Program-made: the position numbers and the translations under genes
From: Coriobacteriia bacterium
GTDB lineage: Bacteria > Actinomycetota > Coriobacteriia > Anaerosomatales > JAAXUF01
Direction of reading: 5' to 3'
Length of the DNA: 40,830 nucleotides
NCBI GenBank assembly: GCA_013336165.1
Contig: JAAXUF010000014.1
Span: 1 to 40,830, forward strand
Shown here: positions 29,164 through 31,433 of the stretch, piece after piece
Numbering within the stretch: position 1 is the stretch's first letter
Layout of the letters: each line of letters begins with the position of its first letter
Notes under the pieces: generated by a model
Databases searched by the model: none
What the model saw: the letters and a program-made list of their open reading frames with translations, nothing else
Told to the model about the DNA's origin: nothing

Positions 29164-29481
29164 CTACAGCTTCAGTTCCCTGCTCAGATCGTCTGCCCCG
29201 CGGGCTCCGACTACTCTTGCCGTCATCTTACCGGCCTCGAACTTCGCGATCGTCGGAATGCTCATGACGTCGTATCGAACCGCAAGATCATGGTTTTCGT
29301 CGATGTTGAGTTTTACGAACTTGACCGCGCCCGCGCTGCGCTCGGCGAGCTTGTCGATCTCAGGCGCCACCATTCGGCACGGACCACACCACGCTGCCCA
29401 GAAGTCAACGACCACGGGAACCGCGGAATTCGTGACCTCGGCATCCCAAGTTGCGGCGGTAACGTCAATTGCACTGCTCAT
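29164..29481 (-). CDS. trxA: Thioredoxin
   Basis: 105 residues from the ATG at 29479-29481, with AGGGAGG eight bases upstream. The active site WCGPC is at residues 31-35, preceded by VVDFWAAW, followed by the cis-Pro segment MSIPTIAKF. Length and motifs are those of classical thioredoxin; no extra domain. The frame upstream of this ATG is open but unsupported. Its promoter contains a CsoR/CstR-like operator, which would tie expression to copper, persulfide or similar stress. Confidence 0.94.
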   Translation of the reverse strand: MSSAIDVTAATWDAEVTNSAVPVVVDFWAAWCGPCRMVAPEIDKLAERSAGAVKFVKLNIDENHDLAVRYDVMSIPTIAKFEAGKMTARVVGARGADDLSRELKL

Positions 29482-29522
29482 TTGTTGTGCCTCCCTGCGT
29501 TCAAGAAAGAACTCCTTGGTGA

Positions 29523-29552
29523 AGGATACCCTACGGGGTATATCGCACGCAA
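29523..29552 (-). promoter_or_regulatory. Candidate trxA promoter
   Basis: On the minus strand TTGCGT (29547-29552) and TATCCT (29523-29528) are separated by 18 bases, and transcription would begin about 35 bases before the trxA ATG. The spacer and the start of the -10 box are occupied by the inverted repeat reported separately. Confidence 0.55.
29526..29541. promoter_or_regulatory. CsoR/CstR-family-like operator (ATACCC-N4-GGGTAT) in the trxA promoter
   Basis: A perfect 16-bp inverted repeat, ATACCC-TACG-GGGTAT, lies between the -35 and -10 hexamers of trxA. The pattern of A/T-rich ends around C- and G-runs matches operators of the copper/persulfide-sensing CsoR/CstR repressors as I remember them. 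No such repressor gene is in the window. Confidence 0.55.
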
Positions 29553-29560
29553 GAGGCCGG

Positions 29561-30529
29561 TCAACTTGGCGGCATCTCTTGGGCCGTCTTGGCCTGCTGA
29601 TACTCATCGTAAGGCTCCAGGTGCACGATGGCGTCGGCGATCTGGTCGAACGACTCGACCAGCATGCGCTCGACCGTCTCGGCGATCTCGTGCCCCTCGG
29701 CCACCGTCTTGGACGAGTCGACCTGGATGTGCAGGTCCGCGTACACCTCTGCCTCGGAACCGCGAGTCCGGATGTGATGGCAGCCCAGAACCCCAGGAAC
29801 CTTCATGACCGCAGCGCAGATCTCGGCAACCGGAATGCGCGCCGAGTCGGAGAGTGTGTTGCTGGCCTGCTTGAATACTCCCCATGCCGTGTAGACGATC
29901 GCGAGCGCCACCAGAAGCGCGACAATCGGGTCCGCCAGCGGCAGATGGAAGAACTTCACCAGCACCAGCGACACAATGACGCCGAGACTGACCAAGACAT
30001 CGGAGCCGGTGTGGCTCGCATCGGCAACGAGTATCTGGCTGCCGAGCTTCTTGCCGACTCGCCGCTCCCATGTGGTGACGAAGATGTTCACGGCAAGCGT
30101 GCCGATCATCACGACGAAGGAACCGACATCGACCCGTGGGGACTCGCCACCCCCGACAATCTGCGCGACGGCGCTCGAGCCGATACGATAGGCCGCGAGC
30201 ACGAGCATTCCGGCGATGAGAGCGGATGCATACGTCTCGTACTTGCTGTGGCCGTAGGGGTGATCCTCATCGGCCGGACGCGCCGCAAACGCCATTCCCA
30301 CGAGTCCCACGACGTTGCTGGCCCCGTCGAAAAGCGAATGGAAACCATCGGCCTGCATGGCGTCCGAGTTGGTGAAGATGCCCCAGAACAACTTGGCCAG
30401 CGCCACCGCGATATTCAGAATCAGGATTACCCAGAGTACGCGCCGGATGTCCCTGACGCGCCGCGCGCCCTGGCCGGCACCAACAACACGCGAATACCCC
30501 ACGCCTGCCCCCCGTAGAAAGGTCGTCAT
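29561..30529 (-). CDS. Cation diffusion facilitator (CDF) family transporter
   Basis: 322 residues from the ATG at 30527-30529; the ribosome site is weak, and a GTG at codon 10 is a possible alternative. Six hydrophobic segments; the metal site is seen as GFHSLFDGASN in TM2 and DASHTGSDVLVS in TM5 (HxxxD pairs). The C-terminal region from about 235 forms the cytosolic ferredoxin-like domain (HHIRTRGSEAEVYADLHI, then AEGHEIAETVERML). The HxxxD arrangement with D at both sites is common in Fe/Mn/Zn exporters, so specificity is open. Lies 79 bases upstream of trxA on the same strand. Confidence 0.93.
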   Translation of the reverse strand: MTTFLRGAGVGYSRVVGAGQGARRVRDIRRVLWVILILNIAVALAKLFWGIFTNSDAMQADGFHSLFDGASNVVGLVGMAFAARPADEDHPYGHSKYETYASALIAGMLVLAAYRIGSSAVAQIVGGGESPRVDVGSFVVMIGTLAVNIFVTTWERRVGKKLGSQILVADASHTGSDVLVSLGVIVSLVLVKFFHLPLADPIVALLVALAIVYTAWGVFKQASNTLSDSARIPVAEICAAVMKVPGVLGCHHIRTRGSEAEVYADLHIQVDSSKTVAEGHEIAETVERMLVESFDQIADAIVHLEPYDEYQQAKTAQEMPPS

Positions 30530-30587: not shown

Positions 30588-31346
30588 CTACGTCGGTATC
30601 AGGGTGTTCGCGAAAACCAGCCAAGCGAGCAAGGACTTCGAGACCAGACTCAGTAGGACGTAGACGTACTCCCCGAAGATGTAGTCGCGCCACCGGCCGA
30701 TCTTCTTGTACTGCAGGACCATGTTGATCGCAAAACTGTTGAAGAAGAGGAACATCGAAATGAAGATAGCGTAGACGAAGCCTGGCGCATGTACCGTGGA
30801 ACCCGGGCTCCAGAGATACACGCCCAATGCAAGCCAAGGCACGATTCCGGCGATACACCCAAAGATAAACGGCATCCAATTGGGCCTGCCTGGTTCTTCG
30901 TAGTGCTCCATGAGCAGGCCGAAGAGGATCATCGATGCGTTGGCGCCGAACACCGCGATGATTGCCGCGATGTCGAAGACGCCCGGCAACAGACCGATGA
31001 GCACCATCATGAGCGACGAAGATACCGAGTACTCGATCCAGCGGGCGTAATTGCGATTGCGTTTCAGGTTCTTCACGTACCAGTCGAAGACCCCTGGTGA
31101 GACGATGATGAAATGCGCCAACGCCGACAGGAATATGAAAGCCGCGACCGCCAGCCCCAGCGGAACCTCGAAGAGGACCTTCGGCGCGCCCGGAGGCGTA
31201 CCGGGAGGGCCTGCTAGGAAGCTGGCTGTTATCGGCAGTTTGAAGCTGTTGGAGAGCGCGACGATTGCAATACCCTGCCCGAGATGAAACAGGCCCATCA
31301 CGAAGTTGTATGACCTCAGACGTCTGAACTGCCGCTCATTAGCCAC
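30588..31346 (-). CDS. Heliorhodopsin
   Basis: 252 residues from the GTG at 31344-31346; AAGGGG lies five bases upstream, better than the ATG five codons earlier. Seven hydrophobic helices. Key residues match the heliorhodopsin founder (48C12) closely: Lys237 in LLSLVSKSLLAW (retinal Schiff base, founder Lys241), Glu105 in RWIEYSVSSSLM (counter-ion, founder Glu107), His21 in LFHLGQG and His78 in LAHFIIV (founder His23 and His80). The N-terminal Arg/Asn-rich end is predicted cytosolic, which is the inverted heliorhodopsin topology. Heliorhodopsins are light-sensing rather than pumping. No carotenoid or retinal synthesis gene is in the window. Downstream of the glutamate synthase gene on the same strand but after a terminator-like hairpin, so it probably has its own transcript. 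Confidence 0.95.
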   Translation of the reverse strand: MANERQFRRLRSYNFVMGLFHLGQGIAIVALSNSFKLPITASFLAGPPGTPPGAPKVLFEVPLGLAVAAFIFLSALAHFIIVSPGVFDWYVKNLKRNRNYARWIEYSVSSSLMMVLIGLLPGVFDIAAIIAVFGANASMILFGLLMEHYEEPGRPNWMPFIFGCIAGIVPWLALGVYLWSPGSTVHAPGFVYAIFISMFLFFNSFAINMVLQYKKIGRWRDYIFGEYVYVLLSLVSKSLLAWLVFANTLIPT

Positions 31347-31433
31347 TTGGTCCCCTTCCATCGGAATCCGTGTCGGAGAGTGACTACCCCAGCAGCCCTC
31401 TGCCTAACTGCGAAACGGACTCCGGACACACAA

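Follow-up and report, generated by a model that had tools for sequence, protein, structure and literature searches.

A putative CstR-type operator in the thioredoxin promoter of a Coriobacteriia bacterium and the reductive sulfane-sulfur regulon predicted for its order

The thioredoxin gene trxA of a Coriobacteriia bacterium of the order Anaerosomatales is preceded by an inverted repeat, which raises the question of whether this repeat is the binding site of a regulator and, if so, to which signal that regulator would respond. The DNA analysed here, referred to as the window, is the whole stretch of 40,830 nucleotides of contig JAAXUF010000014.1 (assembly GCA_013336165.1). An earlier note made from the letters of the window had taken the repeat for an operator of the CsoR/CstR type and had proposed a persulfide or copper sensor as its owner. 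The explanation that we consider likely is that the palindrome serves as operator for the only CsoR-family repressor of this genome, one of CstR type, through which sulfane sulfur would release trxA together with a wider regulon. The features on which the argument depends are as follows, in window positions.

29164 to 29481, minus strand: trxA, thioredoxin 1, 105 aa, WCGPC, the predicted regulated gene (Pfam PF00085, 1.5e-29)
29490 to 29495, minus strand: ribosome-binding site of trxA, GGGAGG (from sequence)
29523 to 29528, minus strand: probable -10 box TATCCT (promoter alignment; TATAAT or TATACT in relatives)
29526 to 29541, no strand: predicted CstR-type operator ATACCCTACGGGGTAT, a perfect inverted repeat conserved in trxA orthologues
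29547 to 29552, minus strand: probable -35 box TTGCGT (alignment of 30 orthologous promoters; TTGACA at the same place in relatives)
29559 to 29564, minus strand: alternative -35 box TTGACC (from sequence; out of register with the conserved -35 of relatives)
29561 to 30529, minus strand: gene of a cation-efflux (CDF) transporter, lying upstream of trxA (Pfam PF01545, 2.6e-43)

The perfect palindrome reported at trxA was confirmed at 29526-29541, where ATACCCTACGGGGTAT forms a 6+6 inverted repeat around a 4-nt centre with no mismatch, and the span originally noted for it, 29523-29552, proved to be exactly the promoter. Its placement between the -35 and -10 boxes held in part: the operator lies inside the 18-nt spacer between TTGCGT and TATCCT, but it is not strictly between the boxes, as it overlaps the -10 by three bases. 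The distance from the operator to the trxA ATG (29481) is 44 nt, and the trxA product also scores above the cut-off for TIGR01068. The automatic promoter scan of the window called no promoter at trxA, because the hexamers of the window genome (G000) are weak. Alignment of the 30 orthologous trxA promoters gave the consensus TTGACA - operator - TATAAT; in relatives, TTGAC(A) directly precedes the operator, and TAT-AAT or TAT-ACT is composed of the last three bases of the operator and the next three. This fixed register of -35 and -10 across the alignment puts the operator in the core promoter of trxA. TATCCT also stands at the -10 place in 5 of the 118 loci listed from other taxa, which are described below, and in an alternative pair, TTGACC with TATACC 16 nt downstream, TATACC likewise falls under the operator.

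The end of the CDF gene, which is context only here, abuts the operator region. The repeat lies 20 bp past the CDF stop codon and its RNA could pair into a 6-bp stem closed by a 4-nt loop, so it might have arisen by chance or might be a hairpin that terminates transcription of that gene. This explanation was nevertheless rejected as exceedingly improbable: there is no U-run, the terminator scan called none, the bases are conserved exactly before trxA throughout the order, also where no CDF gene lies upstream, and what is conserved is a DNA-level consensus with -35 and -10 in fixed register.

Site counts point the same way. The window has three palindrome matches at up to two mismatches against 0.37 expected, and the genome (1.99 Mb, 99.5% complete) holds three perfect ATACCCNNNNGGGTAT (N4) sites and one perfect N5 site, four altogether, while a reversed control pattern gave none at zero or one mismatch in the whole genome. 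Allowing two mismatches raises the genome matches to about 28-32, not far from the 21 of the reversed control; perfect sites alone are therefore informative, and two-mismatch sites were left unused. Perfect N4/N5 sites number 4-9 in each of fourteen relatives, and none of these genomes has a control match. The earlier note had named loss of the palindrome in close relatives as evidence against it; it is kept at trxA in all 30 orthologues of the order, being perfect just upstream of the gene in 29 and carrying one mismatch in the other (L035). At most of these loci another operator, that of a CsoR-family gene, stands some 0.8-1.4 kb away. Judged by these sequence comparisons, the palindrome is a genuine regulatory site.

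Which regulator would bind it? The search for a CsoR/CstR gene that the earlier note had called for found exactly one in the genome (C4:42065-42370; PF02583, DUF156, 3.2e-25, above cut-off), and this gene has a matching operator of its own, ATACCCCTAGGGGGTAT, 51 bp before its start, which together support the proposed CsoR/CstR class. One PF02583 match is also the rule in most of the 25 relatives checked; in G003 and G016 a single tandem reading frame contains two matches, and G037 shows an additional sub-threshold match. The tandem two-domain frame of G016 and G003 (L237-L240), about 205 aa long, could encode a fused dimer repressor. When the protein is aligned to solved structures, C45 and C74 are kept and Ser70 occupies the position of the copper-ligand His, a position that is His in CsoR and InrS and Asn in 7mq1, which we take to be S. 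pneumoniae CstR (its PDB record names it csoR). Among 42 distinct CsoR-family sequences of the order, 34 have Ser at this position, seven have Ala and none has His; one of the 42 is a fragment without the first column, and all 41 readable sequences are Cys-(Ser/Ala)-Cys. In a tree of the 80-residue domain, which is short, support is low and the grouping of the protein with the CstR references is not secure; NCBIfam gives RicR as the best match, far below threshold, and FrmR as a further sub-threshold match. The residue pattern supports a predicted repressor of CstR type, sensing reactive sulfur rather than copper.

Copper nonetheless deserves weighing, as a repressor of the CsoR/RicR type could own the operator and thioredoxin could belong to a copper-stress response. 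RicR is the best, though far sub-threshold, family match, similar sites were noted for G. thermodenitrificans CsoR and M. tuberculosis RicR in the S. coelicolor study (PMC7533328), and in relatives an HMA (CopZ-like) gene stands just before the CcdA operator. That gene, however, is on the wrong side of the operator in relatives and has no operator in the window genome, the window genome encodes six P-type ATPases, all without an operator nearby, and the approximately 50 operators read in eight relatives have no P-type ATPase among their flanking genes. Since the ligand His is also missing, replaced by Ser or Ala in 41/41 readable members of the order, copper sensing is unlikely. Between the two signals first proposed, persulfide is therefore favoured, while copper lost ground for want of a ligand His and of operators at copper-efflux genes; the matching operators anticipated near copZ were not observed, as the CopZ-like HMA gene of the window genome has none.

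To define the regulon predicted for this CstR-type repressor, we called the genes next to the operators of eight relatives, clustered them and matched them to Pfam. The flanking genes include cstR and trxA, a CbiX/ferrochelatase-like gene divergent from trxA, a DsbD_TM/CcdA gene with the HMA gene before it, a membrane-anchored rhodanese-thioredoxin in 8/8 relatives, and an SBF-family transporter and a CDF transporter in 6/8 each; one further operator lies between an MCP-like gene and genes for a small 4Fe-4S ferredoxin and a DUF1462 protein. In the window genome, the ferredoxin at the C3:138387 operator is the orthologue of the ferredoxin found at eight operator loci of relatives, and the C4:10652 operator separates a gene for a 1023-aa FAD_binding_4/CCG oxidoreductase from a HAD-family gene, an arrangement shared with G032. 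No clear sulfur role is apparent for some members, namely the MCP-like protein, the SBF-type transporter and CDF. The relatives' regulon, with trxA, ferredoxin, CcdA and a rhodanese-thioredoxin with an in-frame UGA, looks like a reductive sulfane-sulfur defence. Whole-genome domain search of the window genome (99.5% complete) found no rhodanese or TusA domain, so the support from rhodanese comes from relatives, where operators do lie next to rhodanese genes, one of the two sulfur-gene types that the earlier note had named along with TusA-like genes.

Several details of these loci can be added. The CbiX/ferrochelatase-like protein (L006:6393-7628 and relatives) has an N-terminal hydrophobic stretch and is always in the CstR regulon, and its chelatase-like fold has no known sulfur link. 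Eight loci (L060, L064, L066, L073, L077, L086, L090 and L093) have the operator between a membrane MCP-like gene and the 4Fe-4S ferredoxin, and in most of them the DUF1462 (YuzD-like) protein is beside the ferredoxin. At L007:3175-6566 (minus strand) a 1023-aa FAD_binding_4/Fer4/CCG oxidoreductase precedes a 75-aa cytochrome b5-like protein, and the oxidoreductase is likewise at an operator in G032 (L091).

The composition of the regulon also bears on whether some other thiol-reactive signal, such as formaldehyde, disulfide or electrophile stress, or nitric oxide, could act on the repressor, with trxA as part of a general thiol-redox response. FrmR belongs to the same family and gives a sub-threshold NCBIfam match, and trxA, CcdA and ferredoxin would suit thiol-redox regulation in general. 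Yet the rhodanese-thioredoxin is in the regulon of all eight relatives, no formaldehyde dehydrogenase adjoins any operator read, and two cysteines without His are the signature of persulfide sensors, e.g., S. pneumoniae CstR and ScCsoR, which leaves this signal about as improbable as copper and sulfane sulfur as the preferred ligand.

In all eight relatives a TGA interrupts the rhodanese-thioredoxin frame where the first Cys of the thioredoxin CxxC would be encoded (U-P-x-C), the frame continues for 79-80 codons, and a 6-bp hairpin with two covarying pairs follows 23 nt past the first TGA base. SelA was detected in 17/19 genomes searched, including all eight with the rhodanese-thioredoxin, and was not found in the window genome by whole-genome search. 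These sequence features make the fusion a strong candidate selenoprotein, putatively under persulfide control; at its loci (L059, L063, L068, L069, L079, L083, L088 and L095) the operator is near base 2500 in each. The parts consulted of a recent selenoprotein catalogue have entries for rhodanese and for thioredoxin selenoproteins as well as for TsoB, in which rhodanese is fused to DsbD, and did not yield a rhodanese-thioredoxin fusion (PMC13188914); the TsoB model matches our fusion only far below cut-off. The window genome is without rhodanese, TusA and SelA, though its relatives use selenium and rhodanese.

Gene order offers a glimpse of how trxA reached its present place. In G002, from the same family, the order is EamA<-[op]->cstR-> <-trxA[op]CbiX->, while C4 of the window genome reads EamA<-[op]->cstR->CbiX->, with the CbiX-like gene directly after cstR, and trxA with its operator is found on C14 behind the CDF transporter. 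Since excising both from the G002 arrangement yields the C4 arrangement, trxA and its operator appear to have moved together. The second full-length trxA paralogue of the genome (C12:37394) has no perfect operator. Beside CDF and trxA the window also contains a heliorhodopsin gene (30588-31361, minus strand), a gene present in 36/61 genomes of the set. A functional link to it was rejected: none of 19 other heliorhodopsin loci examined has an operator, so this neighbourhood probably reflects the relocation of trxA.

According to the above results, the control of trxA would probably work as follows. Without a signal, a tetrameric CstR-type repressor would sit on ATACCC-N4-GGGTAT, covering the spacer and the -10, and would deny RNA polymerase access to this promoter. 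Once persulfides or polysulfides had modified C45 and C74, probably into a di-, tri- or tetrasulfide bridge, the repressor would leave the DNA and thioredoxin would be made, which would then convert persulfides to thiols and H2S; thioredoxins are known to reduce reactive sulfur to H2S (PMC9952706). In the window genome the same repressor would also control itself (through ATACCCCTAGGGGGTAT), the small 4Fe-4S ferredoxin and the FAD/Fe-S oxidoreductase, and in relatives additionally CcdA and the membrane rhodanese-thioredoxin with its in-frame UGA. DNA binding, repression, ligand and persulfide-reducing role are thus predicted parts of this scheme. The conserved gene set of these anaerobic actinobacteria is probably switched on to clear toxic sulfur by chemical reduction. 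It is an evenly balanced proposition that the order as a whole runs a reductive CstR response, in which electron-delivery proteins are induced (thioredoxin, ferredoxin, CcdA and a membrane-anchored rhodanese-thioredoxin with selenocysteine for its active-site Cys, specified by UGA and a SECIS-like hairpin), as against oxidation of sulfane sulfur by quinone reductase and dioxygenase, and that the window genome is a minimal version that lost selenium use, rhodanese and TusA and kept the repressor, trxA and ferredoxin.

The earlier note had called a link between such an operator and thioredoxin unusual, which does not hold beyond this order. Scanning species genomes for the operator followed after 118-148 nt by WCGPC codons recovered at least 118 matching stretches in Actinomycetota, Chloroflexota, Bacillota and a few other taxa, for which chance, by a rough estimate (~3.4e5 thioredoxin motifs x 62 placements / 4^12), would supply about one. 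Among the matches listed, 53 CsoR-family domains occur within the matched 8-kb loci, 44 without the His and seven with it. Given at least 118 stretches in several phyla and 44/53 regulators without His, thioredoxin under a predicted CstR-type operator is a widespread design. Thioredoxin, usually seen as a housekeeping or oxidative-stress protein, would thereby be tied directly to a sulfane-sulfur sensor, here in a deep-branching anaerobic lineage in which respiration of sulfur or thiosulfate is probable for some cultivated members; cultivated OPB41/Anaerosomatales include a sulfur/thiosulfate reducer (PMC9686372). The recurrence across three phyla points to persulfide induction of thioredoxin as a general design, of which we found no description in the literature consulted on the topic, and the order-wide operator map makes the regulon readable and testable.

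Compared with known systems, the repressor shares with CstR of S. aureus, S. pneumoniae and E. faecalis the DUF156 fold, the two cysteines and the lack of a copper-ligand His, as well as, by prediction here, autoregulation and a sulfur-handling regulon. The regulon of E. faecalis CstR is an operon with rhodaneses and a CoA-persulfide reductase, whereas here it is scattered over single promoters, and rhodanese and TusA, the usual CstR partners, are absent from the window genome. Copper sensors of the CsoR/RicR type share the fold and recognise an almost identical operator, but they possess the His ligand that is lacking here, and the window genome has no operator at copper-efflux genes. YrkD of B. 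licheniformis, a CstR homologue, controls a cluster including the thioredoxin YdfQ (PMC9918477); that thioredoxin is embedded in a long sqr/pdo/tusA/rhodanese cluster, while trxA here stands under an operator and a promoter of its own. TTHA1953 of T. thermophilus (PMC10318464) is likewise a CsoR-family protein with a sulfur-handling regulon scattered over the genome, but it controls Sox oxidation and has another consensus. Within the same phylum, Actinomycetota, ScCsoR of S. coelicolor (SCO0620) is of the same two-Cys type and binds ATACC-n6-GGTAT, a consensus to which the site at trxA conforms; it senses sulfane sulfur via Cys37/Cys66, is released by polysulfide, and controls a persulfide dioxygenase, a rhodanese and a sulfite transporter (PMC7533328), an oxidative route unlike that of the order studied here, and S. 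coelicolor thioredoxins have been reported under AdpA control (PMC9952706). The repressor mechanism predicted here would thus be of an already known kind, serving a regulon that is weighted to reduction.
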